A DNA stretch of 64,000 bases from Pleurostoma richardsiae. Lineage: Eukaryota; Ascomycota; Sordariomycetes; Calosphaeriales; Pleurostomataceae. Position numbers and translations under genes: made by a program. Location of the stretch: assembly GCA_030052745.1 (NCBI GenBank), contig JANBVO010000005.1, positions 1 to 64,000 on the forward strand, read 5' to 3'. Positions 8,888 to 32,907 of this stretch are shown here, piece by piece (position 1 is the first letter of the stretch; every line of letters starts with the position of its first letter). The notes beneath the pieces are model-generated. The model did no database searches, had not been told where the DNA came from, and saw only the letters and a program-made list of their open reading frames with translations.

Positions 8888-9144
8888 ATTCAAGCTCAAC
8901 CTTCCGCGATGTCATCTTCAGATATCTTCTTCAGAAAAGGAAATAGACGTTCTGGTCGTGCCGACTCGGGAGGAGAGAAGTGACTCTTTGCAACCCCAAT
9001 AGGATCAGTTCTACACTTGCACTTGAGCTGCGGTGGGATAGAGGTGCTCTTGTTCGCAATTTTTCTGTAGATGCTGACTGCAAAACCCGCCCATTCTTTC
9101 AAGCACTCAGTGGCTATTAAGCAGGATTTAGTTACCGGTTTGTA

Positions 9145-9211
9145 GCGCTTCGACTACCTGGCTGGGTACCAGCCCAGCCACCCAGCCAGGTAGTTAGGGC
9201 AGGTGAAGCGC
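9145..9211. repeat. Perfect 14-bp inverted repeat with outer arms (fold-back/hairpin)
   Basis: ACTACCTGGCTGGG at 9153-9166 is the exact reverse complement of CCCAGCCAGGTAGT at 9181-9194. The 14-base loop itself contains CAGCCCAGCC, which can pair with the left arm in an alternative stem. Outside lie GCGCTTC (9145-9151) and GAAGCGC (9205-9211), again complementary. The nested symmetry suggests a small fold-back element or MITE relic, or a cruciform-forming regulatory hairpin. Confidence 0.7.
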
Positions 9212-9793
9212 GGGATAGTGGTTACGGAAATAGCATGGCTCAGCCCAGTAACCGCCCACCGGTCTACGAGGCAAACCCAGGGATATGCCGTTTCCACAAG
9301 GCACCCATCCAGCAAGATCTGGGGTATTATTCCCGACCAACTACCAAATAACTACAGGGACTCGCCGCAACTTCTCGATGGAAGAAGCTATGACGTTCGG
9401 CACCTACGCAAGCGAGCAGCGCCACAGCCACGATCCCACTCACATCTCGGATCCGGGGCCGGCCTCTCCACCACTGCACGGCCACTGAGCGTGTAAGTGT
9501 GTGGTTGCGTGGCCCCAGGCCCCTCGCTAAGCGTTCAACCGTTCAGCTTCTCCAGGGTCAAGATGATGTATGTACTGTATGTAGGATGCTGACTACGGAG
9601 GCCGTCTTGCCATCCGCCACTGGTCCTCGTCAGAGTGTCGTTTCTTGGCATGCTGCAGACCAGACATGACCCGCTGTCTCTCTTGACCACCCTTATCAAG
9701 CTCTGGCTCTCTTCTTCTATTTCCTCGGCCAGATCCGTCTCTACTCTAGACACTCGAGATGGGAACCCGGTTTTCTATGATCCAGTCGCCAGA

Positions 9794-13178: not shown

Positions 13179-14646
13179 TTCATTGGGATGCCGAATGCGT
13201 TGAGGCGGTCAAGGAGGAAGATGGTGGGGAGACCTTCAGGGCTGGATGGGCAGAGCTGGTGATGATGTCGTTTTGCGACGGGGAATTGGCTTAGCTTTGT
13301 CTTCTTAAATTGACCGGGGGGCCCTGTGCACCTAATGTGAACGAGGTATTCCCCACCCTACCTGGCCGGCAAAATTCCCCGTTAAACATATATGGATTAA
13401 ATGTAGGTGTTTATTTCTCTATGACTACTACATATAATCTTAAGAGAGTTTATACGAATTTAAAGTCTACTATTGTCAAGCCTTTAAGGTTACAGGGCAC
13501 AGGGCCTTCTAGGGTCTAAACAGGTGAAACGGGCCTGCAACAACCTTCGAGTCTGGGCTTGCACACCAGGTGGAGTCCCTGTCCAAACAGGCGCATCCTA
13601 CCAAATGCTCCCTACATTCCTGAGATATAGACGTCAATGTGTACAGGTTGCCTTCATCTCCGTCAACTGTGCACTCCGATACAACCTCCTGTGCAGCTGC
13701 CCTGTAGCCCAACAGAAAGTAAAAAGATAATTTAAGTTGAAACGGAATGATAAACTACTATGGAAAATAAAGACGATAGAGAAAGATCGTACGAGAGGTT
13801 TATATAAGAATCCTCTAAGTCGAGCTTCCACGAAAGATAGGGAATTTATGTCCGGACAGTAACTATCGCCGATGGCGACGAGAAGTAAACGACGTCGGCT
13901 TGACAAGAAAGATTTGTACGACTTTGAAGCAGACAAATGATAAGAACCGGGTCGCAGCCGTAAGACATACTGTATATGCTTAGCACATGCAGTTTCCAGA
14001 GTTGTTCACTGAGGGGATCAAGGCCTAGATTGAGGACAGGCCGGCGTCGAAGGCGTTTAAAGACGTATCGCTTCTTAAGATCACGTTGCGGGTACATTCA
14101 AAGATCGAGCCGAGAACGATCTCTTTTGAGTAGCCAGACAGGGGGACCACTTGCTTTCTACACTGGCCAACTTCCGCAAGACTTAGAGTTCTCAATCATC
14201 ATTCTACTCTCTGTGTTGCGGGGCAGCTGCAACCACAGGCTGCCGTAGACAAATGCTTTCGCTTTTATTTCCATATTGGGAGTCGCCAATATTACCTTCT
14301 TTGACTGATCACGGGAGCGATTTCACTAGACCTACTTTCATTAGCACCCATAGCGCTGTGTTAGTTTCCATTTATGGACCAGCACCTACTAAACGGATAT
14401 CGTGCTTCCTAGCCAACTGATGGTTACACGAGAGAGCGCCGTCCTCACCCGTACTCCATCCGGCCAGATTTCGGACGATCCAAGCAGGCCACAAAAGGCG
14501 CAAGCCGAAGTGTCACGACCTCTTACAAAATTACAAAATACCATGGCTAATGCTGTCTCTCCTCGTGCTGTCCCCGGCTGCACTCACCTAGATTCACTCT
14601 CAATGCTCGTGGATTTGGTCGTATAGACCTTTAGGTCACCGTCGCC
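13179..14646. other. TpA-rich gene-poor stretch, probably an eroded repeat, plus the promoter of the first SDR
   Basis: From about 13,370 to 14,300 the sequence is rich in TA dinucleotides (for example CATATATGG and TTTATATAAG) with many interrupted frames on both strands, unlike flanking GC-rich genes. Minus-strand open pieces between 13,509 and 13,936 look like leftovers of a coding region, but no transposase, polymerase or integrase motif could be recognised. The shift fits decay of repeated DNA by mutation toward TpA. About 300 bp before 14647 should be the SDR promoter. Confidence 0.35.
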
Positions 14647-15623
14647 ATGCCTCTCTATCAGCCGCCCGATGTCAACACTCCAGTACTCTCGCAGTTTTCC
14701 CTCAAGGGAAAGATCGCGGCCGTTACTGGCGGCGCCCGAGGAATCGGCATCGAGGTCGTCCGAGGACTGGCCGAAGCCGGCGCAGATGTCGCGCTCATCT
14801 ATACCTCGAGCAGAGATGCAACGGAGTCCGCGGCAAAGATCGCAAAGGCTACCGGTGTACGTGTTGAAGCCTTTCAGAGCAACGTCGCTTCTAGATCCGC
14901 CATCCTCGACACGCTTGAGCTAATCGCACGAGACTTCGGCAACGGCCGTCTCGATATCGTCGTCGCGAATGCGGGTGTTTGTGCCAACGTCCCTAGCCTC
15001 GAGTATGACGAGTCGTCATGGGCGAAAAACAACAGCGTTAATTATGATGGGGTCATGTGGACAGCACAGGCGGCAGGCAAGATATTTAAGAGGCAAGGAA
15101 CGGGCAACCTCATCATCACGGCGTCCGTCAGCGCTATCCTCGTCAACATTCCGCAAACCCAAGCTGCGTATAATGCCTCCAAGGCAGCTGTCGTTCACCT
15201 CGCTAAGAGCTTGGCTGTGGAATGGGTTGACTTTGCCAGGGTCAACTGCATATCACCCGGATTCATCGAGACCAAAAGTAAGTTTCAGGACTCATCTTGT
15301 CTTGTAGCCCTTCCTATTGGATCCCTGTCTCGCTGCGGTCCAAGTTGACCTTGGTATTGACAATGATGCAGTGCTGTCCTCTCAGCCTAAGGAGCTGTAT
15401 GCTCAATGGTTAAGTATGATCCCTGCACGACGGATTTGCCATCCGGCCGAGTTGAAGAGCGTAAGTATTTCGGTTTGCTAGGATACCTTGGTTTCACATG
15501 TGGTGCTGTCGGTCATGATGCTAAATCTGAGTCTCCCAGGCTTATGTCTTTCTCGCAAGTGCCGCGTGCTCCTACATGACCGGCAGTAATATTGTCATAG
15601 ACGGTGGCTACACTTTGCCGTAG
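14647..15623 (+). CDS. Short-chain dehydrogenase/reductase, polyol (sorbose/xylulose reductase-like) type, copy 1
   Basis: Three exons (14647..15277, 15372..15460, 15540..15623) encode 267 aa. Classical SDR features are seen: cofactor motif TGGARGIG, VANAGVCAN, catalytic Ser in ITASVSAI, YNASKAA with the Tyr-x3-Lys pair, and the end TGSNIVIDGGYTLP. The sequence resembles fungal NADPH-dependent sorbose/L-xylulose/mannitol dehydrogenases (Sou1/Sou2, Lxr). Known for these: reversible reduction of a ketose to a polyol in the cytosol. The start MPLYQPPDVN matches that of the second copy at 23406-24338, with which it shares exon lengths and intron positions exactly. It is the leftmost enzyme of the sugar/polyol cluster and is followed by the co-directional SurE gene. 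The exact substrate is unknown. Confidence 0.85.
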
Positions 15624-16223
15624 GGGCATAGTGACGAGCACAAGAAGAACATATGTATTTTGACAGCAAGACCTAGTTCAGAATGGAGGTCTTATAATAC
15701 AACGTTAGACAGCATAGAACCCGCTCTAGTTCAAGAGGTTAGAAATGGAATCAATACTATCGACAAGCATAGCTACTGAGCATCTGCATGCTCGATTGGG
15801 TCGGGACCCGGGTCATACATGGCAGAAAGATACATCTGGTGGCTCTGTACCTGGTACTACTACGAAGGTGGATGGCCAAAGTTTTGCATGCTACCATTTC
15901 GTGTTCTTCGTGATGGAGACACCTAGGACGTCCGTGACGGCGCTTGCCGAAGCACGGCCAGCTAAACAGCATGGAATGGGATCCTTGTGATGGGATCTTT
16001 ATTAGGGCGTCATCCAACGTGCGGTAACTTCCGATCAGTTGCTGCAATGATGCTAACTCGGGGACGTGGCCCGTTTATAAGTGACCGCATCACGCGCACG
16101 ACCTATAAAACTCTCCGCTACCGACATGAGAAAACTCCGCCGTTCCGTGATCGCGTAGTTCCTCCATATCTGATAAGATGGGCGTGGATATGCAGAGCGA
16201 TAGGGCACCTTCACTCCTTCACC
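15624..16223. other. Intergenic region upstream of SurE
   Basis: About 600 bp separates copy 1 SDR and the SurE-like gene. It contains the shared TGCGGTAA motif at 16020-16030. An in-frame extension of the SurE frame reaches back to 15987 but lacks family resemblance, so it is treated as untranslated. Confidence 0.5.
16020..16030 (+). promoter_or_regulatory. TGCGGTAACTT motif upstream of SurE
   Basis: TGCGGTAACTT lies about 195 bp before the SurE start. It resembles TGCGGTAATTTT at 18336 and TGCGGCAATTTT and TGCGGTAATATA at 24675-24703, all in intergenic regions of the same cluster. The CGG triplet is the usual half-site of Zn2Cys6 regulators, so this may be a site of the cluster regulator (inference). 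Confidence 0.4.
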
Positions 16224-17128
16224 ATGCATATCCTTGTCGTCAACGACGACGGCCCTCCGTCTAACATCTCTCCTTATGTACAAAGCTTAGTTGACGAACT
16301 TCAGTCCGCCGGCCACGTCGTCTCCGTCGTCCTGCCCTACACTCAACAATCATGGATTGGAAAGGCGCACATGATTGACCGGGTAGTCCGGTGCGTGCCG
16401 TCGGACAATCCAGACCAAGAAGGCTGGTTCTTCGTCAACGGCACGCCGGCCACCTGTGCCCAGGTCGGCTTGAATCATCTCTTTCAGAATCGAGGACCAG
16501 TAGACCTGGTCGTCTGTGGCCCAAACTTCGGACAGAACATAACGGTCTTGTTTGCGCTGTCCTCCGGAACGCTCGGTGCCGCTATGGAAGCCGCTCTGTG
16601 CGGGAAATACGCGATCGCATTGAGCTACAGCAAACCCCTTGTCTGCAAACCCCAAGCCGTCACCGCGACTGCCAGACACAGCGTCAGGATCATTGAGGCG
16701 CTCGTAAAGCAGTGGCCTCGGGACGGCAGCGTGGACATATACAGTGTTAATATGCCGGTGGAGGCCGATGTAGCGGGACGAAAGGTGGTCTGGTGCGGGA
16801 TCTTGGAGAATCACTGGCACGGAGAGAGCTCTTTCGAGGAGCTGACGACTACTCCCAACGAAGCAGTAGACAAGTCAGCGGTCAAAAAGGAGCCTGTGAC
16901 TCGCTACTTCCGATGGGCACCCAATTTGGGTCATATCGATCGGATCTTAAACGCCGCACCGGTCGGGACGGACGGATGGGCGACGAGGAACGGTTATACG
17001 AGGCAGGTCACTGGACTTTGACTGATTCGTAGGAGCCTCGAAACTAACAGCGTTCCAGCATAACACCTTTACAGGCAAACTTCCTCGAGCAGGCATCCGA
17101 CTTGTATGGATCGGACTTCACAGTCTAG
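16224..17128 (+). CDS. SurE-like survival protein/acid phosphatase (5'/3'-nucleotidase family)
   Basis: Two exons (16224..17002, 17059..17128) encode 282 aa. The start CACCATGCATATCC gives MHILVVNDDGPPSN, with the metal-binding NDDG of SurE. Other family marks are VNGTPATCAQVGLNH, CGPNFGQNITVLFALSSGT and DIYSVNMP. Known: SurE enzymes are metal-dependent phosphatases on nucleotides or other phosphomonoesters; in fungi the domain occurs alone or fused to a tubulin-tyrosine-ligase domain (Pby1). No TTL domain is present here. The end is restored only if the 56-bp intron uses a GC donor (GAG|GCAGGT), giving GYTSITPLQANFLEQ, which fits the conserved SurE end; without splicing the protein stops after RQVTGL. 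In the cluster it could dephosphorylate a sugar or polyol phosphate (inference). Confidence 0.83.
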
Positions 17129-17291
17129 GCAGTCTCATCCAGAGAAAATCCGCTCATGCAAGTATCGCAGTTGAATCTTTCTATGCTCATCTATCTTTGT
17201 CTATGATTCCCAGTGTTGTGTCTAGGCCATCTACCGTTTCGTGTCGCAGTCTAGATACTTCCATCACGTCTATCCTCGCCTTCTGGAGCGC

Positions 17292-18551
<1,260 letters not shown>

Positions 18552-19825
18552 ATGGCAGTAAGTAGAATGGGTATTGCTAGGAGGTGCACTGAATGACTGG
18601 CCGACAGGTGAACCCCTCTTTCGTACTTCGTGCGGTGAAAGATGTTGTCATTGAAGACAGGCCCAAGCCGGCGTTGGAGGATCAGAACGATGTGATTCTC
18701 CATGTTGCCCAAACAGGCATCTGTGGTAGCGACGTAAGTTGAGATATTTCCTTCCTCTTCCCCTCCGTAATACTGATATTACTGCTCAGAGCTAATGTCC
18801 ATCAAGGTGCACTAGTATGTTCTATATATTCAAGCCCTCGCTCCAGGAGCAACAACTGACCTAGTCCTCCGCGCACAAGCTGGCAACGAGGCCGTATCGG
18901 TAACTATATCCTCACCGGGCCTATGGTCCTCGGACACGAGTCTTCAGGCGTTGTTGTCGAGGTCGGTTCGCTCGTCAAGCACCTCAAGCCCGGCGACAGG
19001 GTTGCCATTGAGCCAGGTGTCCCTTGCCGACGATGCGACTACTGCAAGAAGGGGTCTTATCATCTCTGCGGTGATATGGTCTTCGCGGCAACTCCTCCTT
19101 GGGACGGAACGTTGGCTAAGTACTATGTGAATGCCGCCGACTTCTGTTACAAGATCCCTGACTCCATGGACTTGGAAGAGGCAGCCATGGTGGAGCCCGT
19201 GTCAGTCGCTTGTGCCATTGCGAAGACCGCCGACCTCCGGGCTCACCAGACTGTTGTTGTCATGGGTTGTGGCCCCATCGGTATCCTCTGCCAGGCAGTC
19301 GCCAAGAAATACGGCGCAAAGAGAGTCATCGGGGTGGACGTTGTGCAATCGAGGCTGGATCTCGCAAAGCAATACGGAGCGGACGGGACCTTCCTCCCTC
19401 CGCGTGTGGCGTCCGGTGTCGAGCCAAGTGCACACGCCGAGAACGTAGCCGCGCAAATTCGCGATACCTTCGACTTGGGAGACGGCGCGGACGTCGTCCT
19501 GGAGTGCTCTGGCGCTGAGGCGTGCATACAGATGGGGATCTATGTTGCCAAGAGAGGCGGAACATTTGTCCAGGCCGGAATGGGCAAGGAGAACGTGCTG
19601 TTCCCTATCACCGCGGTCTGCACGCAGGGACTGGTGATCAAAGGGTCTATCCGATACTTGAACGGCTGCTATCCAGCGGCAATCGACTTAATCTCCAGCG
19701 GTGAGATTGACGCTAAGAGACTGATTACGAACAGGTTCAAGTTCGAACAGTCAGAGGAAGCATTTGACTTGGTGAGGCAGGGCAGACACGATGTCTTCAA
19801 GGTTATGATTGCGGGTGTGCCGTAG
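18552..19825 (+). CDS. Zinc-dependent polyol dehydrogenase (xylitol/sorbitol/arabinitol dehydrogenase type, MDR family)
   Basis: Four exons (18552..18557, 18608..18733, 18807..18814, 18880..19825) encode 361 aa in consistent phase. The first exon holds only Met-Ala and the third is an 8-bp microexon supplying V-H and two bases of Tyr in GICGSDVHYWQRG. Catalytic zinc ligands are the Cys of GICGSD and the His and Glu of LGHESS. The structural zinc set is the Cys of [15 protein letters not shown]. The NAD-binding motif is [10 protein letters not shown], followed by VIGVDVV with an acidic residue at the strand end, favouring NAD. Known reaction for the family: polyol + NAD to ketose + NADH, for example xylitol to D-xylulose. 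It is divergent from the mannitol-type SDR and upstream of the sugar porter. Residues around the active site do not settle the substrate. Confidence 0.88.
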
Positions 19826-20868
19826 ACGCGACTTCGTCGCCTCACTATGCTATTCACATGATTAATAGGTAGCAAAGTCGCTAGGCTACAACTGTAAATC
19901 AAAAATTTAATAGTTATGAAGTGATTACCTTGCCAAATATCTCGAACTTCGTAGAAAGCTTCGTGCCGTACTGGCTGACGCCAAGTTGTGGTGCCCACGT
20001 CATTCCTCAACACTCGGCGTTCTAACATATTCGCTCCTGAGCCTGTTGAGAGATAGGGACAAGATGGAAATGTCCCTTCAAGTCTCACCATCTAGTCTCC
20101 ATATACCTTCCACTGGCTTTGCCTTCATAATCTGTCGATTATTTCCTGGATAATAAGCACTCTGATAAGTGCTCGTGGTTATTCCTTTCCCCCGAAATCA
20201 TCAGATGTGCTGAGCATACCGTGATGTCCTCGAACCCAGACAGACTTTCTCTGTTTTGAGATGTGCGAGCGGAGGCCTCACAGGGAAGAGGCAAGGAAAC
20301 CCGAACTCCGTCGACGTTTATGAGACGCGAAAATTGCCCGTTCCGGCAAGGTAGCCCAGAGGCTCCGCAGTTGCCACATAAGCGCGATCCCAAACGTCCC
20401 GTTGGTCTGCATGTGTGCCACTCGGTGGCTAACGGGTATACCTTCACCTTTTACCCCGACGCATTCGACTCCGCGTATGCGGGGAAGATATGGGATAGAC
20501 TCCGGGGACCGTTCGCTGAAACCTTCGGTGGTTCTGCGAAGTACTACTCCGCATTGTTAACCATTCCAAAGGAAGTCCCACATTCAGGGGTTCCGGGGAA
20601 AGGGATGCCACCATACTTCCCCGGTTCTCCAGGTCTTGGAACACTCATCATGCCCCGGAGCATCGGCAAATGGCATCTCTCTGCCCCTCTAGGACAGGGG
20701 ATTAGTGAGCTGTGTAAGAGACGTGAAGACATAGTGACAACATGCAAGTATATTTCAGGGAAGTATAAATCCGGACCAAGTCTTACCTTCAGTGAGAACA
20801 CAACCCACACTCTCTCCATCTATATCTTGACGAACTCTGAGCTTCAACACAGCTAAATTTTCAGAATC
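19826..20868. promoter_or_regulatory. Long upstream region of the sugar porter with clustered CreA-type boxes
   Basis: The 1.04-kb region has one chance open frame (20263-20856) without domain or splice support. Between 20479 and 20658 it carries GCGGGG, CCGGGG (twice) and CCCCGG (twice), all matching the SYGGRG consensus of the carbon repressor CreA/Cre1. Glucose repression of the porter is therefore likely (inference). Confidence 0.5.
20479..20658. promoter_or_regulatory. Cluster of five CreA/Mig1-like SYGGRG boxes
   Basis: Sites are GCGGGG 20479-20484, CCGGGG 20502-20507, CCGGGG 20593-20598, and on the other strand at 20619-20624 and 20653-20658. Paired close SYGGRG sites are the known arrangement for functional CreA repression. 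All lie 210-390 bp before the porter start. Confidence 0.5.
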
Positions 20869-22843
20869 ATGACAATTCTGACGGGAAAGAAGCCGTATTT
20901 TGGCCTTAGAGGAGGATGGCTCGTTTTTTGGGTTACAGTAAGTTCTCATAGCATCTTACAAACACCGATGTGTTGAAGGTAGAGATGGCTTATATGGTGG
21001 CAGGTCGCCTGTGCAAGTGACATGACATTATTCGGCTATGATCAAGCTGTTTTCAGTGAGTTCGACGGTAGGTCCCTGCCGCACGGGATCTGATTGTCTC
21101 TTTTAGGTGGTGTTGTGGTCACCCAAGATTTTCTCGTACTCCACGACCTCGTTGGTCCAGGCAAGACGAAGGTGCTTTCAACTGTCACCGCCATCTATAA
21201 TGTTGGATGCTTTATCGGAGCGATCATCGCATTTACCATAGGTGAGCGTACCGGACGCAGATGGGCTATTATCATTGGAACCACGATCATGGCCGTCGGG
21301 ACGATCTTGCAAGCATCCTCATTCAGCCTAGTCCAGATGTTCGTCGGCCGTATCGTTCTTGGGTAAGTCTTCTCCTAGGACGGAACGTTTCTGCGTATAT
21401 ACAGACAGAAGCTAAGAAGAACACTCTCTGTCTTCACAGAGTCGGAAATGGTATAAACACGACGGCAGCCCCTATCTGGCAGACCGAGACCTCGAAGGCA
21501 CAGTGGCGAGGCAAGCTTGTCATCTTGGAGATGATGATGAACATAGCAGGATTTTCCCTGGTCAATTGGATCAACTACGGCCTATCCTTCCGTGGGGGCT
21601 CCATAGCATGGCGCTTCCCCCTGGCTTTCCAGTTCATCTTCATCTTCATTCTCTGGGGAACTGTCCCATGGCTGCCAGAGTCGCCCCGGTAAGCGAGATA
21701 ATACGAGAAAGCCAGTTACTGGGTGTCATAACTAACCCTCCCTGCACTAGATGGCTCCTTGCCCACAACCGTAAGGATGAAGCCCTCCAAGTTCTCGCTG
21801 CTCTCGAGAACAAGGAATCCACCGACTCCATTGTTGTCACCGAATTTAGAGAGATTGAGTTTGCAGTCGAATATGAGCGGGAGCATGTCGTGAGTTGGCA
21901 CCATCTCTTCATGGGTAAGAAGCAACACTCTGGCGACACGAAGACGATACGCCGCCTGCTGCTTGGTGCCGGGACGCAGTTCATGCAACAATTCGAGGGA
22001 ATCAACATAATGAGCTACTACCTTCCAACAGTTTTCATCGAATATGTCGGGTTGTCTAACCAGATGGCACGCCTGCTCGTGGGCTGCAACTCCGTCTCAT
22101 ACCTCGTCTTGTCCTGTGCGGCCGTACCGCTGATTGAGAAATGGGGACGGCGAAGGCTTATGCTAATTTCCACCTTTGGCCAGTTCGTATCGTTTCTGGT
22201 TATCACGATTTTGCTGAGGTTCTCTGGCAACAGCAGCAATGGCAAGACAATCGCCACTGCCTCGATTCCATTCTTCTTCCTCTTTTATATTGCTTTTGGA
22301 TGGGGGATGTTAGGTGTGCCGTGGTTGTATCCTACGGAGATCAACTCTTTGCCTATGAGAACAAAAGGCGCAGCACTGGCAACCGGGACGAACTGGTGAG
22401 CCTCCGGACCGACTTGACTGACTAACATGAGGAGCTGATGTTGACATTCTAGGATTACCAACTTTGTCATCGTGGAAATTACCCCGATCGGAATTCAGAA
22501 CTTGGGCTGGAAATTCTGGATCGTCTGGACCGTCTTCAATGCTGCTTTTCTGCCAATCATCTACTTCTTGTATCCTGAAACTGGTAGGCATTGAATTAAC
22601 CAAAAAACCTACACAAAACTTGGCTGACGTTTCCCAATAGCGAATCGACACCTCGAGGACATCGACGCGTACTATCGCACTAACCCGTCGCTCATTGTCA
22701 CGAGGGATAGTGATGCTATCAGCACGAAGAGACCACTCAAATACATCCAGCATGAGGCCGAGGAAATCCGTCGAAATCGCACCAGTATCTCTGGTTCTGT
22801 CGTCGAGGACGTGGCCAGAGACATCAAGCCACAAGGGGTTTAA
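20869..22843 (+). CDS. MFS sugar/polyol porter (sugar porter family)
   Basis: Seven exons (20869..20937, 21004..21055, 21107..21362, 21440..21688, 21751..22395, 22453..22583, 22641..22843) give 534 aa with consistent phases. Sugar-porter signatures are seen: FGYDQAVFSG in the first helix, GERTGRRWAIIIG, PESPRWLLA, QQFEGINIMSYYLP, KWGRRRLM, GVPWLYPTEI with TKGAALATGTNW, and the motif after helix 12 split by an intron (YPETANRHLEDID). Twelve membrane segments are expected. The C-terminal tail is hydrophilic. Known: such porters import mono- or disaccharides or polyols by proton symport. It lies in the same orientation downstream of the zinc dehydrogenase, with CreA-like boxes upstream. The substrate is not determined; the context suggests the sugar or polyol used by the cluster. 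Confidence 0.88.
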
Positions 22844-23405
22844 GATCCAGAACTTCCGCGGCGAGTCTAATAATGGGAAAATGTTTGTGTCAGACACGGG
22901 ATGCGGGTATCTGTCTGCCAGCAAAAGTGGATGAATATTTTCTGGTCGAATTATCAGTGAATCTGCTTTCTACATGCTTTCCTACCTATAAGCGTAGAAA
23001 GTACTTTATATACTCGAAATGAATGCTGAAGGACTTTATACACACATAACCGCGTCGGGACACTCTACCTCCAAGCATTTCCATTGTGTTGACGGCAGGG
23101 ATCCCACGACTAAGCGTAATCAGCAGACGAGCAAGGGGTTCTGATGCTTGAAGACAGTAGACTAGACAAGCGATACGAGCCATTGCGATTCCATGCGCGA
23201 AGAGTGGCCTGACGTCAAACAAAAACGCACCGAGAGTTACAGAGCATACCATCGGAGACACTGCTTGTGGCGTGACCATCAAGTGGCATCAACAAGCAAG
23301 ATCTATCTTATGTTCTTATTTTGCGAGCTATATGCTTTATTTTAGACCATTCAACAAGTAGGCAGCATCACCACCATCTCCGAAGCTCTCCGAGTCTCTA
23401 CGGCG
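22844..23405. other. Convergent intergenic region between porter and SDR copy 2
   Basis: These 562 bp lie between two convergent genes and probably hold both 3' UTRs. No open frame with support and no repeat was seen. Confidence 0.5.
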
Positions 23406-24338
23406 TCACGGGAGAGAATAACCGCCGTCGATGACAATATTCGCACCAGTCATATAACAACAAGCATCGCTGGCAAGGAAGACATAGGCCTAAGGTAGTA
23501 CGCACGTGTCAGCTTTGACCACTGAGACTTTGGAACAGGGGCTGAGGTCCACCTACACTCTTCAACTCCGCCGGATGGCAGATGCGTCTTCCCGGGACCA
23601 GGGCCATCCACTGATCCTGGATCTCTTGCTTCTGCAGTGAAAGCACTTTCAAAGAGTATGTCAACTTTGGTCTTGAAGACCCAGTCTCTGAGGGGGGAGG
23701 GGCTCACTCTTTGTCTGGACGAAGCCCGGCGAGATACAGTTCACCCTCGCGAAATCCACCCACTCCACGGCAAGACTCTTTGCCAGATGTACCACCGCAG
23801 CCTTGCTCGCGTTGTATGCCGCCTGTCTCTGGGGTATATTCACAAGGATCGAACTCACACTCGCCGTAACAACTAAGCTTCCCTTCCCGAGTCGCTTGAA
23901 TATCTTTCCAGCAGCTTGCGCTGTCCACATGACGCCGTCATAGTTGACGCCGTTGTTGTGCCGCCAGGTCTCTTCCGTATATTCCAGGTTAGGGATATTC
24001 GCGCAGACGCCGGCATTGGCAACAACGATGTCCAGCCGTCCGTTGCCGAACTCGCTACAGATCTGCTCCAGTGTTTTCGCTATCCTGTCTCGGTCAGAAA
24101 CGTCAGAGCGGTATGCCTGGACGCGCTGGCCTGTTGCCTTGGAGATCTGGGCCGCCGTCTCTGGAGCGTCGAGGCTGGAGATGTAAATCAGGGCAACGTC
24201 CGCACCGGCCTCCGCGAGACCGCGGACAACCTCGAGGCCGATGCCGCGGGAACCACCTGTGACAACTGCCACCTTCCCATTGAGAGAGAACTGTGACAGC
24301 ACGGGGTCGTTGTAGTTTGGAGGCTGGTAGAGCGGCAT
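23406..24338 (-). CDS. Short-chain dehydrogenase/reductase, polyol type, copy 2
   Basis: Three exons (24338..23708, 23645..23557, 23489..23406) encode 267 aa. An in-frame ATG at 24362 would add eight residues; I chose 24338 (A at -3) because MPLYQPP is shared with copy 1. Features are TGGSRGIG, VANAGVCANIPN, VTASVSSILVN, YNASKAA, WMALVPGRRICHPAELKS and TGANIVIDGGYSLP. Exon lengths (631, 89, 84) and intron phases equal those of the gene at 14647-15623, so the two arose by duplication; they face opposite directions and lie near the two ends of the cluster. Known family activity is reversible ketose/polyol conversion. Without splicing the frame runs into unrelated sequence after TKS. The gene is divergent from the Zn2Cys6 regulator. 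Confidence 0.85.
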
Positions 24339-24835
24339 TCTGGTCTCAGGGTTGACTGTCACTTGATATCGATGCGGTTGGGCAAGAGTTCACTGCTTGG
24401 AGGATGAAAATGGTAGGTCGTTTGAGCTACCGAAGTCCAAGGTTGCTAGTGTGCTCGCCTGGCCAGATAATATACTCCAGCAATGCGGCACCAGGAGAAG
24501 TGAAAGGCCCATTTCCCCCGCTTCCCCCGCGTGGTTACGACACGAAGCGTCTGGACACGGAGGAGCACTTGGACAGCCACCGCCATGGCGTGTGACTTCT
24601 GCTTCCTCAAGTCTGTCGGTTCTCCGCAGCATTTCTATGGCACGAACGACCATTAGAACTTAGAACGTGGGAACTGCGGCAATTTTACTCAATGCGGTAA
24701 TATAGCCGAGACTCCCCATCTAGGTAATTCAGTCCCTCGCTCTGATATGCACGGCGCTCCGGCCCACAGAATGGAGCCTTCGACTCTTGCCAATGCATCG
24801 TTGCCCCGAGGCCGCTCAAGCTGCAATCTGCCTAT
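24339..24835. promoter_or_regulatory. Divergent promoter between SDR copy 2 and the Zn2Cys6 regulator
   Basis: The 497-bp region holds two tandem TGCGGYAA motifs (24675-24703) about 135-160 bp before the regulator start, suggesting shared control and autoregulation. Confidence 0.45.
24675..24703 (+). promoter_or_regulatory. Tandem TGCGGCAATTTT and AATGCGGTAAT motifs
   Basis: Two copies on one strand, starting 18 bases apart at their TGCGG cores, precede the regulator gene. The second shares an exact 11-mer with 18334-18344. Their CGG triplets fit a Zn2Cys6 protein binding direct repeats (inference). Confidence 0.45.
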
Positions 24836-27048
24836 ATGAGGAATACGCAAGAGATAACTAGACGCAAAGGCACGCGATCTCGGAAAGGATGGTATGTTGT
24901 AACTGTTCCTATGTGAATTATGTCCTTTGCCGAATATGGTGACTTACGCGAGTTCTGTCCAGCCTTGAGTGTCGGACGAGGAAGATCAAATGTGACGAGA
25001 CGTTGCCTAGTTGCGGGCAGTGTAGAAGAAGTGGAAAGTCCTGCTCCGTCAGAGATGCTGTTTTCAGGCCTGATGCTCGGTCGTTTCATCTCCAGCACCT
25101 TTCAAATGGACAAGGCGCCGACGACGAACACGCAAGCCATACCGTCTGGGCTCAAGTCGCCACTGAAGGTGAGCTCGGCTGTTCTACTCCTTCTTCTTCC
25201 TCTCTAACAAGGCGAAGCTGTCTTCGATGGCCCTATCCAGGAGGACCCCACTGTGAGGCCCGAAGCGGATGGCCAATATGAGGTGGATAGCCCAGATGAC
25301 CTCGACCATGACACAGTGTCTCATGGGAGCGCTCGAAGTGAAGAGCACCGCAGCAGCAATTATGCACAGAATCCCAGCTCTCATGGACTCAGACCACATT
25401 CTCCAATAGTTCGATCAGCCCCTGGGTTCATTGGCCTCGTCGAAGCCACTGATACTCCCGGTGTGAATCAAACAAGCCGTGATGTCACGACTCCCACAGA
25501 CGGCCGCATTGCTTTCTCTCACGGAGTTGTGGGCCGCGGGAGCGTGGAGGAAGCGGAAGAAGTCGCGTTCTTCCTACGACAATACTCTGAAGGCCTAGCA
25601 AAAGGGTATGTATCTTTGTCGCAGCCACCAATCCCTCTGACATCTGGTCTAGAATGGATCTCTGGGCTCAAGATCACTTCTTCAGTCAGCAGGTCTTGAT
25701 TCTGGCAAGAAACAATGCCCTCGTCAGGTATTCCGTCTGCGCTTTAGCAGCAAAGCATATGGGCCAGATGGAGAATCCAACCTTGCGAGTTAAGAGGGTC
25801 ATAGGACAAGAGCGCATTATGAAGACCATAGAAAGAAGTGGGCTTGACTATCTCTGGTACGGGGCCAAGTACTACGAACGGGCCGTACGGCTGCTATCAG
25901 CGGACATCTCGAGCCCGGCGAATTCTAGCTCCTACGCATTACCGTCACGAACACCCGACGTCCTCGACAACGAGGTCTCAGCCAGTTACAGCCCAGGCGG
26001 AAGTCTGACGGACGGTCTCGAGGATCCTACCACTGGCCGTCTGGTTGCTGTGTGCATTCTGGTTGAATACGAACGTCTCAGCACTACATTAAAAGGCTGG
26101 GCCGGGCACCTGAATGGATTTGCAAAGTTGCTCCATCTGGACAGGCTTGGACAGGTATACTTGAATCAGTTACAGTCGTCAGCAATGCAGATGCTCTTCT
26201 GGCACTTTTGTTTCCAGGACTGGGAAGAGTCCTGTAAGTAACCGTGCCCTATGTTGCGATATTTTCTAACTCCTAACCCATGTGCAGTTGTCACGCGAAC
26301 TGCAGTACGAGTTGACGTGGATAATGCGATGCTATGGCACACCATGGGACTCTCACCTAGCGATGGCGACTACTGGCACCGAAACTCTGCGACCCCCAAT
26401 ACGGCTTTCACTCCACATCGTTATCACGAGAGAACATATCTCTACGAACTGATTAGGTTGATGTGCCGGCTGGCCAACAACTCGATACGGCATCTGGATA
26501 TCGAAAGCTCCGAAATAAATGGAGAAGAACCGCAAGGCCCTGAAAGACGGTGGGCGGAGTTGAAGCACGAACTAGACACTTGGCATGATACACTGCCACC
26601 GGCTTTCCAGCCGGACGCTTGCCTGCCGCACGGAATAGCGTCGACGTCGCGAGTCTTCGTCGAAGACTCGTGGTTTTCCACGAGTGTATGCGGTCTTTCT
26701 ATGATATACTACTACACAGCACAGATCCTCCTGACCATACAGCGCCCCAGCTCCTTGACAACGAGCAACATCGGTCCAAGCCATTTCGATCTTCTTGTAG
26801 CATACCGTGCGGTGCAGGAGGAGCTTCGTGGTTATGCCAGAAAGATCGTGTCCATTGCCTCAGGGATGCATGAAGACGCCATGAAGATGTACATTATCCA
26901 GCCGCTATATGTTGCTGGGAGGTGTCTGACCGACGCGGAAGACCGACGCAAGCTTCTGGATATGTTGCGGGGCATAGAGAGGGAGTTCGGCATCTTCACG
27001 GAATATAGAGTAAAAGCTCTATGCGAGGAGTGGCGGGCATGTCAGTAG
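24836..27048 (+). CDS. Zn2Cys6 transcription factor, candidate regulator of the cluster
   Basis: Five exons (24836..24891, 24963..25168, 25212..25605, 25653..26233, 26288..27048) encode 665 aa with consistent phase. The zinc cluster at residues 19-46 has spacing C-x2-C-x6-C-x6-C-x2-C-x6-C (GCLECRTRKIKC then CGQCRRSGKSC); its first Cys codon is split by intron 1. A linker rich in Ser and Asp follows. From about residue 205 the protein resembles the fungal-specific factor domain of the Fungal_trans_2 type (FLRQYSEGLAKGMDLWAQ, LARNNALVRYSVCALAAKH, CILVEYERLS). Known: such proteins are nuclear and bind CGG-containing sites. Its position at the right end of the enzyme set and the TGCGG motifs in its own and other cluster promoters suggest it is the pathway regulator (inference). 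Confidence 0.87.
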
Positions 27049-29112
27049 TTAAACTACCTGGTATATTCGTAATTTAAGCTATTTTAAAGTATTTATACCT
27101 TGAAATCTGTAATGACTAATGTAATCTGAACTCGAAGACAATAAGGTTATCTTTTTAAGTGAATGCTGGTTAGGCTGGGCTTATATGTATGGGAAGGGTG
27201 CCCTCAGGCCGCAATCGTCCTGTCAGCTGTCAAGCATGCCAAACAGGCCGTCAGGATTATCACGTGACAGCGCATGGGGCTAGATGCCCCCTTTATGCAG
27301 TTATGCCTAGAAAGTAATCGATTTTTCGATTTCATGTGCAGTTATAGAGGAGTTTGAACTCACTAACGGATGAGGAACTAGGTTTTACCGTATAGGGTCC
27401 CGATCTTGCTGCGATACGAGGGTCAACCTGCTCAATTCGAGACGAAACCGGTTTCTATCAAGAGATAAGAGCACATCGGCATCTTTTCGGATCCAATGCA
27501 AGGCAATGCAAGGCAATCCAAGACAAATGTCTCGTTGGCCCTGCAGGCTTGCTGCAGTTAGAGTTTCGCCCCGGTTCCCCGGAAAAAGAGCCCGTGAGAG
27601 GCGGCGAGAAAAACTGGATTACCGATGAGTCGCTGGCACTAGCTTGGGTTGAGGACCCGGAAGAAGCTCCAGAAGCCCAACGGCTTTTGCCTCCAGGTCA
27701 GTTGACAATCAGGAGCGGAGTCTAGACTCGGTCACAGTGTGGTGTAGCGTACTGTAGAGCAGAGCTTCCTGCGGGGCCGGTCTTCCGACCGTTTGGGAGA
27801 ACTGGGAGAATACGAGGACCGTGAGCTTATGGCAGCTTGTAAGAGGCGAAAATCGTGGCTGCTTGGGCGACCTGAATGCGTCGGGTCGCTCTGGTGTGCC
27901 TCGTAATCGACCAGAATGGGCTCTTTGTCCTGCCGTCTTGCAGAGTCTCACACATACGAAGAAAGACATCCGGCTGGTTGAGTACGGATGTCTTGAACAC
28001 TGGATGGGGCTGCTTTCAAGCTTAAAAGTGATCGGTCAACTATTAGTGCCTCCGACAAGCCACCAGCGCCCAGCAGGCGCTTTTGCCGGCCTAGGAAAAC
28101 GAGCTGAGGAAGAATCGGCAAAAGGGGCAAAGGCCACAATGGCGACTCTGCGTGCGGTGCAGATGAAGGAGACTGGGTGAGACACGAGGGAAGATCTTCC
28201 TCTCTGTTTGTACCTCCCAGTTCAGTCAGAGAGGGTCATCATCTCACAATCATTTGTGACCCCCAACCATGCCAAGCATGCCTGCTCTCGCATCTTCAAC
28301 TCCGCATCTGACGGTGACCCACGCGCCGGAGTCTTCCCAAGGTGCCGAAGCGGACAAACGAACCATGAAAATGTCAATTGGGTGCCGTGATTGGAGAAGA
28401 GGAGCTGTTGCTCCTCCTCCTGGGGACCCTGCAACTGCACGATGGCCCGAGGAGGCTACCCTACCTTGCCTACCCTAGCTAGGACAGGCATGCATTCCCG
28501 CGCCATGTCTAGGGTGGTATCGCTGCTCTACCACGGGCGCATCCCCGACCACCACCTCGCCCGGGGTCTCCTATTATTTTCAATCTCTCTTCTCTTAAAA
28601 GGGACTCCACCCACGGTGCTCCTGCCGGTAGCTTGCCTGTCTCCTCTTGTTCCTGTTCTCGTCCCTCCGGAGTCTCGCTCGTTGCCGTCTCTCGCTCAAA
28701 TAGCAGCAACCTTCTTCCGTTTCCCCTTCGTCTTCTTGTCCGCCTCGCTTGGACAATCTATTTTTTACCGTACAGACCTTTGGATAATAACCGTGGTCTC
28801 CATACCGTCGTTTCTGCAGCTTTGGACCCAATTGTCCGCTAATCCCCGTAAGTCAGGCTCCTGTTATACTCGGACTAAGACCAGCTCAGAACCACCCGTC
28901 TTTTGCCTCCATTCCAGAGCCTCCGGGTTTCCGGGGACAGTCTATTTGTTTCTTCGCTCAGTCATAGCTCCGGGGCAAGCTTGATAGCTCCTAGTTTGAC
29001 CGTGCTAACCGGATGGCATGATCAGACCCGAGCTTTATAATAATCATCACACACCCACTACTCTAATTGTCCCTTCGCTTGTCCGACGATAGCCCATACC
29101 GATATTTTCACG
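27049..29112. other. Two-kilobase intergenic region right of the cluster
   Basis: The first 200 bp is AT-rich. A short direct repeat, CAATGCAAGG twice plus a partial third copy, lies near 27,494-27,523. The segment before 29112 is CT-rich, like a fungal promoter, and has TTTATAATAA near 29,035, about 75 bp before the next start. Open frames (for example 27821-28180 and 28391-28984) lack support. No RNA gene was recognised. Confidence 0.45.
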
Positions 29113-29915
29113 ATGCCTTCCCTCAGGACCGCCGTGCTGGCCTTTGCCGCTGCCCTGTTTGCTACCGTCCAGGCAGACTACGTGATCGACCCCACCAGTG
29201 TCCCTCTGTCCACCAGGAGTATGTGCTACCCGGATATGTCGGGCCCGAAGCTCGGATAGCTGACTATCTTGTGCTCCGCCAAACAGAACAGTGGTGTACC
29301 TCGGAGGAGAGCACCTGCCCCATCATCTGCGAGCAGACGCCCCCCTACAGCACCCTCGTTAACACGTGTGACCCTGTAAGACCATTTGCTTACCCCAACC
29401 GCTCTCCGGCCTGCGTTCCGCTCCTCCCGTTGCAGTGCCAGTAGCATGTTTCGCTGACCGTCCTCTCTCTTCTCCAGACGACCCTGACCTACGGCTGCGT
29501 CTGCGGCAACAACCTGCAGCCCAACGTGTCCGAGTACTCCCTGACGCTGCCCTACTTTGTCTGCCAGGAGTGGGGCAACCAGTGCGTGACGGGCTGTGGC
29601 TCCGACAACACCTGCGCCTCGGCGTGCCGCGAGGACCACCCGTGCGGCGCCCTCGACCCGACCCGCGTCAACACCACCAGCTCTGCCTCGGCCGGCGCCA
29701 CCGCCACGGGCACCAACGGCGCCGCCGCGACGACCAGCAACCAGGTATACGACGGCTTCGGCGACTCGAGCGCCACGGCGACGGCGGGCAGCAGCAGCAG
29801 CGGGAACAGCGGCAGCGACAGCAGCGTCGCGGCGGCGTCGCTGGACCTGGCGAGGGCGTACAGCTTGGTTGTTGTGGTGGCGGGGATGTTCGTCGGGTTT
29901 GGGTTCATGCTGTGA
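29113..29915 (+). CDS. Secreted Cys-rich GPI-type surface protein (DUF7707-like)
   Basis: Three exons (29113..29218, 29287..29375, 29478..29915) encode 210 aa. Residues 1-21 form a signal peptide (MPSLRTAVLAFAAALFATVQA). The mature domain starts DYVIDPTSVPLSTR and continues QWCTSEESTCPIICEQ, TLTYGCVCGNNLQPN, PYFVCQEWGNQC and SACREDHPCGA, a regular Cys spacing shared by DUF7707-type ascomycete proteins. A Ser/Thr/Ala/Gly-rich linker follows. The last 20 residues are hydrophobic (SLVVVVAGMFVGFGFML), with small residues just before, fitting GPI attachment. Inferred place: plasma membrane or cell wall. The family function is unknown. Splicing at 29218 gives STRKQWC. Confidence 0.8.
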
Positions 29916-31346: not shown

Positions 31347-32907
31347 ATGGCGCTCAATGTCTCCAAGGTCTCCAGCAGTGCGTCCTTCCCCCTCGAACCC
31401 CACCAAAATTTCCCCTGGAGATTGATCCCGATCCCTCGAATTACGCCCGGCTAACCAGCGCGTGCTGCTGCGGTTGTGTAGAGAAAGCTGCAGCCGAGTG
31501 CATCTCGGAGGACGCGCTCAAGCACCTCAAGTCCTACAAGTACTCGGCCGTCGACAAGTCGCCCGTGTCGCATTACATCCTGCGCCCATATGTACGAAGC
31601 AGAAGCAGCCCGCCTCTTCCTCCCCGACACCGCCGCGTCACCAGCTAACCCTCGAGCCACAATAGTGGAATGCCGTCGTCGAGTTGATGCCGCTATGGCT
31701 GGCCCCGAACATGGTCACCCTCATAGGGTTTCTCTTCATCCTGGGCAACGTTGGCCTCCTGGTCCTCGTCATGCCTGATTTGATCGGCCCGGTACGTCGT
31801 CCCCGAGAGACACGGAGCAATATCCGGACGCGCAATCGCTAATGGAGGATGTGGTTGGCAACAAAATAGGGACCCTCATGGCTATACTACAGCTTCGCGT
31901 TCGGCCTCTTCATGTACCAGACGATGGACAACATTGACGGCAAGCAGGCGCGGCGGACCGGCACCTCGAGCGGACTGGGCGAGCTGTTTGACCATGGCAT
32001 CGACTCGCTCAACTGCACGCTCGCCAGCCTACTCGAGACCGCCGCCATGGCCCTCGGCACCTCGAAGCTAGGCGTCTTCACCGCGCTGTGTCCCTGCGTC
32101 CCCATGTTTTTCTCGACCTGGGAGACCTACCACAGCCACACCCTGTACCTAGGCTTCGTCAACGGGCCCACCGAGGGCCTCCTGATCGCCTCGGCTATGA
32201 TGGCCCTGTCGGGCTTCTTCGGCCCGGGCATCTGGACCACGCCGCTCGTCGACCTCGTCGGCGAGAAGCACGCCGCCGCCCACGGCGACAAGCTCGGCGA
32301 CCTGACCGTGCGGGACATGTGGGCCTTCATCCTCATGGGCGGCTTCTTCGTGCATGTGCCCAGCTGCATCCGGCACGTCATCCAGGCGCGCCGGCGGCAG
32401 GGCTTGCCTGTGGCGCCCGTCTTCCTCGAGTGGACGCCCATGGCCGTGTACACCTTCTCGATCGGCGCGTGGCTGTACAGCCCGTACTCGACGCTGCGCG
32501 CCGAGAACCACCTGGTGCTCTTCTGCCTGACCATGTCCTTCGTCTTCGGGCGCATGACCACCAAGATGATCCTCGCCCACCTGACGCGCCAGCCCTTCCC
32601 CTACTGGACCGTCATGCTCTTCCCCCTGGTGGGCGGCGCCGTCCTGGCCAACCTGCCGCGCCTGGGCCTGCCGCCGGTCGGGCCCAGGGTCGAGCTGGCG
32701 TACCTCCTCGGCTACTTCTTCTTCGCGCTCGTCGTCTACTTCCACTGGGCGTACCTCGTCATCACCGCTATCTGCGACTACTTAGGCATCGAGGCCCTAA
32801 CGATCCCCCGCGAGAAGCAGCTCGAGAACAAGAGGCTGCTAGCGGGCGAGACCTACAAGGCGGCCAACGGCAACGGCACGGCGAACGGGAAGAGCAAGCC
32901 GGCGTAA
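31347..32907 (+). CDS. CDP-alcohol phosphotransferase (ethanolamine/choline phosphotransferase, Ept1/Cpt1 family)
   Basis: Four exons (31347..31377, 31482..31591, 31666..31791, 31870..32907) encode 434 aa. The first exon is only 31 bp. The start of the mature core, LKHLKSYKYSAVDKSPVSHYIL, is typical of Ept1/Cpt1. The CDP-alcohol phosphatidyltransferase motif D-G-x2-A-R-x8-G-x3-D-x3-D is seen as DGKQARRTGTSSGLGELFDH followed by GID. About eight to ten membrane helices follow, ending in a short hydrophilic tail with GNGTANGKSKPA. Known reaction: CDP-ethanolamine or CDP-choline + diacylglycerol to phosphatidylethanolamine or phosphatidylcholine + CMP at the ER/Golgi membrane (Kennedy pathway). 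The sequence does not show which headgroup is preferred. Confidence 0.9.

Follow-up and report, generated by a model that had tools for sequence, protein, structure and literature searches.

A putative polyol/ketose utilization cluster with its own sugar porter and zinc-cluster regulator in Pleurostoma richardsiae

In Aspergillus, the oxido-reductive pathways for D-galactose and L-arabinose alternate NADPH-dependent reductases of the short-chain dehydrogenase/reductase (SDR) family with NAD-dependent zinc dehydrogenases on polyols and ketoses, and the genes responsible are mostly scattered. Here we describe seven adjacent genes of Pleurostoma richardsiae, at positions 14647-27048 of the window (the whole stretch analyzed, which is the first 64 kb of the 1,337,341-base contig C82 in a genome of 39.4 Mb and 136 contigs), encoding three SDRs, a zinc dehydrogenase, a SurE-family protein, a sugar porter of the major facilitator superfamily (MFS) and a Zn2Cys6 regulator. 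Judged from sequence, these genes probably constitute an accessory, pathway-regulated cluster for polyol/ketose utilization, of putative substrate range. For comparison, PMC5371717 names XdhA and SdhA among the Aspergillus pathway enzymes; it also gives AN2666 as a xylitol/sorbitol dehydrogenase and assigns transport activity to AN2665, its neighbor by number. No description of a cluster like the present one was found in a literature search at the level of titles and the starts of abstracts, a negative that is weak for SurE, a term that also matches the word "sure".

Gene content and predicted enzymes

The seven gene models were built by hand from reading frames and splice signals. All are intact, with no in-frame stop and GT..AG boundaries at 17 of 17 introns, and the Pfam families agree with every one of them, which confirms the row of adjacent polyol/sugar-type and regulatory genes described in the initial annotation. 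SDR1 (14647-15623, + strand; 267 aa; exons 14647-15277, 15372-15460 and 15540-15623), a carbonyl-reductase-like short-chain dehydrogenase, and SDR2 (23406-24338, - strand; 267 aa, three exons) are 77% identical and have exons of equal coding length, bearing out their proposed paralogy; each is 41-44% identical to SDR3 (17292-18092, - strand; 266 aa, one exon). The closest solved structures to SDR1 are carbonyl reductases, followed by 3-quinuclidinone reductase and mannitol dehydrogenases. Carbonyl reductases as a group are NADPH enzymes, and the group of SDR1 relatives also contains the yeast sorbose reductase SOU1. SDR3, for its part, shares 71% identity with the NADP mannitol dehydrogenase Cla h 8 (3gdf) across 260 residues and carries the motifs ITAS and YNVAK of the S-Y-K site. 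The mannitol-dehydrogenase-like assignment made at the outset is thus upheld: SDR3 is by its sequence of the NADP mannitol 2-dehydrogenase type, with predicted mannitol/fructose activity using NADP(H).

The zinc-dependent dehydrogenase (18552-19825, + strand; 361 aa, four exons including an 8-bp microexon at 18807-18814) has its best matches in ketose reductase (1e3j), sorbitol dehydrogenases and xylitol dehydrogenase. Its zinc ligands and four structural cysteines are retained, with ICGSD, GHE and EPVSVA aligning with 1e3j. The model further carries an aspartate, D200 (VDVVQ), that the NADP enzyme 1e3j lacks; an aspartate at such a position is expected of NAD enzymes. We accordingly predict a dehydrogenase of the sorbitol/xylitol type, a class within which sequence cannot tell sorbitol, xylitol and arabitol use apart. 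The opposite cofactor preferences proposed in the initial annotation hold up only at the level of sequence, given the NAD-type D200, the proximity of SDR3 to an NADP enzyme and that of SDR1 to carbonyl reductases.

The MFS sugar porter (20869-22843, + strand; 534 aa, seven exons) is a full Sugar_tr match, and its public protein is 30 aa shorter (504 aa). The Zn2Cys6 regulator (24836-27048, + strand; 665 aa, five exons) has Zn_clus and Fungal_trans_2 domains; the public protein, NKR23_g2583, has 606 aa and no zinc-cluster match and begins in a different frame (window 24836-25211). SDR2 is the sole gene between porter and regulator, and SDR3 and the zinc dehydrogenase share a single divergent intergenic region (18093-18551).

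The relatives of SDR1 could also be read differently, with the array belonging to a cluster for secondary metabolism or detoxification and its SDRs acting as carbonyl reductases on a non-sugar substrate; the carbonyl and 3-quinuclidinone reductases that are the best solved relatives of SDR1 would suit this. The Sugar_tr match of the porter and the ketose reductase, sorbitol and xylitol dehydrogenase matches of the zinc dehydrogenase speak against it, however, and no polyketide synthase, nonribosomal peptide synthetase or terpene synthase match was found among the seven models and 16 flanking window open reading frames (ORFs) scanned, the first of which on the right side lies at 31912. Without a backbone synthase among these, we reject this explanation as highly improbable.

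Recurrent linkage in other fungi and in the same genome

That these genes adjoin by more than chance is argued by two recurrences: regulator-porter linkage in other fungi, and linkage of zinc dehydrogenase and SDR genes on another contig of the same genome, C65. For the former, linkage was read from equal contig size or from gene tags across two protein searches, where we infer that contigs of equal size are the same contig; the comparison covered 119 non-self porter rows (from the best 120 of 1266 listed) and all 21 non-self regulator rows. The regulator relatives comprise 20 named rows from Aspergillus or Penicillium, with identities of 27-35%, and one more that matches over 5% only. A porter relative is linked in 8 of the 20 named rows, seven by a same-sized contig (of the same species each time) and that of A. 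wentii by tags. Wherever serial tags are available, porter and regulator stand two tags apart, as in the window (4/4; regulator and porter, respectively, N7506_001781/001779 in P. brevicompactum, N7456_006480/006482 in P. angulare, N7467_007258/007256 in P. canescens and MW887_011588/011590 in A. wentii), the intervening gene being known from tags alone. In A. fruticulosus the two are linked by a same-sized contig, yet their draft numbers are distant (200299, 216715); such draft gene numbers are generally not positional. The remaining 12 of the 20 rows have no match among the porters listed; porters of A. karnatakaensis and A. niger are listed, but on contigs of different size. The initial annotation had named a lack of synteny of any subset in related genomes as what would tell against a cluster; instead, regulator and porter are co-localized in other species, a criterion for a catabolic cluster, and their linkage recurs in Aspergillus and Penicillium.

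Within the genome itself, C65:11.3-27.2 kb holds a zinc dehydrogenase, SDR1-like and SDR3-like genes, a sugar porter and a regulator, as does the window. Specifically, an SDR3-like gene (11.3-12.1 kb, 50% identity) is followed by a P-loop sugar-kinase-like protein (12.6-13.3 kb; the PDB entries it matches best are the hypothetical protein 2ga8 and, under the deposited name fructokinase, 3c8u), a Fungal_trans regulator (16.7-18.5 kb), a porter (19.9-21.5 kb), a zinc dehydrogenase (24.1-25.3 kb; 65% and 49% over two stretches, though a copy on contig C115 scores higher) and an SDR1-like gene (26.3-27.2 kb, 48%), which is the best SDR1 relative outside the window. Given 12 further zinc-dehydrogenase loci and 11 further SDR matches across the 39.4-Mb genome, chance would place only about 0.03 such pairs within 5 kb. 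The C65 locus differs in having the kinase-like protein and no SurE match, in a regulator that matches Fungal_trans and not Fungal_trans_2, and in a porter only 27% like that of the window. A second locus, C2:18.9-28.0 kb, has a Fungal_trans_2 regulator flanked by a sugar porter and an SDR, next to which lies a transketolase; this regulator is the only relative outside the window that matches the window regulator past the end of the zinc cluster. Together, the C65 and C2 repeats are the best in-genome evidence that these families cluster for a reason. The C2 stretch itself resembles another sugar-pathway locus. The flanks of the C65 locus, out to 46.5 kb, contain a piece of an O-methyltransferase, another SDR, a piece of a Fungal_trans_2 regulator and a GH3 glycosidase.

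Further copies of the enzyme families lie elsewhere. A mannitol-dehydrogenase-type gene on C45 is 72% and 58% identical to SDR3 over two pieces, so that SDR3, in contrast to Cla h 8, is one of two close genomic copies; the C45 copy has a much higher GC content at third codon positions (GC3; 0.963 over the exon measured). The zinc dehydrogenase of C115 is 53% identical to that of the cluster, with a GC3 of 0.934. From these additional copies and the higher GC3 at C115 and C45, we infer that the cluster holds accessory isozymes. The same comparison bears on the idea that the genes serve synthesis and turnover of an osmolyte (mannitol or another polyol) under stress, and not growth on polyols. 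SDR3 is of the mannitol 2-dehydrogenase type, and a phosphatase together with reductases would suit polyol synthesis; the C45 and C115 copies are nonetheless likelier to be the general-purpose enzymes, cluster genes having a GC3 of 0.57-0.69, and a sugar porter and a specific regulator stand in the array and are linked elsewhere. An osmolyte role therefore seems improbable to us.

SurE, a candidate regulatory word and the cluster boundary

The SurE gene (16224-17021, + strand; 265 aa, one exon) encodes a SurE domain scoring 153.4 bits against a curated cut-off of 22.1, and its metal-site residues D8, D9, S43 and N101 align with bacterial SurE 2e69. On this basis it is a predicted phosphatase with its metal-site residues kept. 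In a tree of 28 of the 120 listed rows together with the cluster SurE and an own-genome copy on C86, the cluster SurE falls in a separate, divergent, stand-alone clade of eight rows (support 100/100) with Clonostachys rosea, Plectosphaerella cucumerina, three Fusarium oxysporum rows and two more; the remaining 22 rows include ones named PBY1 as well as the C86 copy, and several branches of the tree are long. PBY1-type proteins combine SurE with a tubulin-tyrosine-ligase (TTL) domain. The cluster SurE belongs to the same Pfam family and is 45% identical to the C86 copy, which a TTL domain adjoins; by its clade and by the lack of a TTL domain, which was found in none of the seven models, it is nevertheless not of the PBY1 type. 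A third SurE gene occurs at C68:389.6-392.2 kb, near a GFO/IDH/MocA oxidoreductase whose C-terminus resembles Gal80.

An eight-letter word, TGCGGTAA, is found on one strand in 3 of the 5 intergenic stretches of the cluster, where 0.05 would be expected. The candidate shared sites, all on the + strand and suggestive only, lie upstream of SurE (16020-16034, as TGCGGTAA..CGA), between SDR3 and the zinc dehydrogenase (18336-18352) and between SDR2 and the regulator (24693-24709).

Several results weigh against the seven genes as a single, jointly controlled unit. The word is not found upstream of SDR1 or the porter. Of 1000 random sets matched in length, 9% contain an equally or more enriched word and 1.5% an enriched word with CGG/CCG, and such sets have on average 6.3 eight-letter words in common where the cluster promoters have 2. 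Furthermore, of 38 genome-wide sites for the extended pattern only 3 fall in the cluster, and the reversed control has 84. As proof of shared control the word was therefore set aside, being not significant on its own against random sets, and TGCGGTAA is suggestive of a candidate site, no more. For SurE, we compared the first 10 rows of the list, seven from the stand-alone clade and three from outside it (two grouped with the PBY1 type in the tree; the third, P0009, bears the source name tubulin-tyrosine ligase), and 0 of these 10 contigs equal the contig of any listed porter in size. As for the porter, a tree of 56 of the 119 listed non-self porters with the window model and one own-genome outgroup gathers all eight linked porters into a single clade of 14 rows (support 87, with no resolved order inside it). 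An approximately unbiased (AU) test rejected the grouping of the window porter with the regulator-linked porters of Eurotiales (Aspergillus/Penicillium) in one clade (p 0.00027; 33 of the 119 porters plus the window model, with the group picked after viewing the tree and 3 of the clade's 14 porters omitted). In a regulator tree of 18 of the 21 non-self rows, the branch of the window regulator is long. With the window porter outside the linked clade and the window regulator on a long branch, the porter-regulator link is therefore either ancient or has arisen more than once. By path, the nearest row to the window porter is that of the basidiomycete Auricularia (76% identical), in the same poorly resolved four-row set. 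Basidiomycete porters, namely this one and that of Mycena (71%), fall among ascomycete ones in the tree, which may reflect transfer between phyla.

These results make a smaller true module a serious, if less probable, contender, one that overlaps the seven-gene reading and is partly counted inside it: porter, SDR2, regulator and probably the zinc dehydrogenase would belong together, and SurE, SDR3 and perhaps SDR1 would be passengers. Indeed, the regulator-x-porter spacing is the only linkage seen in other fungi, the tightest recurring pair on C65 is the zinc dehydrogenase with the SDR1-like gene, and the contigs of SurE relatives match no listed porter. On the other side, SDR3 is tied to the zinc dehydrogenase by their common divergent intergenic region and has a counterpart on C65, 12 kb from the zinc dehydrogenase there, while SurE lies inside the array with the candidate word upstream. 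Under either boundary SurE is the weakest and least certain member, because of its separate divergent clade and the 0/10 contig comparison. The phosphorylated intermediate of the initial annotation is likewise unsupported, as SurE is its sole witness, no kinase is present among the seven and the 10 contigs compared for SurE match no listed porter. It is an unlikely possibility that a stand-alone, fast-evolving SurE became a sugar- or polyol-phosphate phosphatase feeding the oxidoreductases, with the sugar-kinase-like protein in its stead on C65.

The surroundings are of other kinds. Left of the cluster, TAF2, SAS4 and an IQ-motif protein are the nearest scanned ORFs with a family; right of it, the ORF at 31912 weakly matches a CDP-alcohol phosphatidyltransferase. 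A small Ser/Thr-rich, cysteine-containing open frame with a hydrophobic end (29526-29915, +) possibly encodes a GPI-anchored protein. The eroded, TpA-rich DNA reported to the left is weakly supported by a scan of 1-32000 in 500-base steps: 9001-9500 (TpA/ApT 1.18, second index 1.17) and 13501-14000 (1.10, 0.95, GC 0.458) are outliers, but the strongest step, 28501-29000 (1.21, 0.89), is on the right. A foreign origin does not follow from composition, as the GC3 of the cluster genes overlaps that of 11 flanking frames (0.62-0.95). The cluster, the C65 locus and the C2 locus each lie within 30 kb of the start of their contigs; a subtelomeric origin was dropped, as no telomere repeats turned up when the window and C65:1-10000 were searched and the left flank of the window holds TAF2 and SAS4.

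Proposed pathway and comparison with Aspergillus

The interconversion of polyols and ketoses proposed in the initial annotation survives as a cluster with its own porter and regulator, in view of the gene families, the recurring spacing and the two related loci, and is to be separated from the phosphorylated intermediate. For such a cluster, substrates, direction, cofactor use, co-regulation and the place of SurE may be envisaged as follows. The porter would import a sugar alcohol or ketose, and SDR1 and SDR2 would reduce a ketose (L-sorbose- or L-xylulose-like) to a polyol with NADPH. Using NAD, the zinc dehydrogenase would oxidize a polyol of the sorbitol/xylitol type, yielding D-fructose or D-xylulose, SDR3 might interconvert D-fructose and mannitol with NADPH as a storage or redox sink, and the Zn2Cys6 protein would turn the set on; SurE could take phosphate off a putative ester. 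If this is true, the locus offers a carbon-source cluster, regulator included, that is open to testing, a short route to function for the uncharacterized regulator-porter pair of Aspergillus and Penicillium, for which laboratory strains exist, and a possible substrate class for divergent fungal SurE proteins.

The Aspergillus oxido-reductive pathways resemble this locus in one further respect, in that AN8467, whose name is that of one porter relative, depends on AraR, GalR and GalX: in A. nidulans, according to PMC9151342, its expression on L-arabinose drops in the absence of araR, and that on D-galactose in the absence of galR or galX. The part of PMC8306328 that concerns it describes AN8467 as putatively glycerol-selective. 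The connection is one of name, AN8467 being the name that one source gives to the Paecilomyces variotii porter relative P0169. One paper tabulates AN8468 as a WD-repeat protein carrying a NACHT domain, so that AN8467 is not necessarily part of such a cluster. The Pleurostoma genes differ from those of the Aspergillus pathways in being clustered and in including an SDR of the mannitol-dehydrogenase type and a SurE protein.

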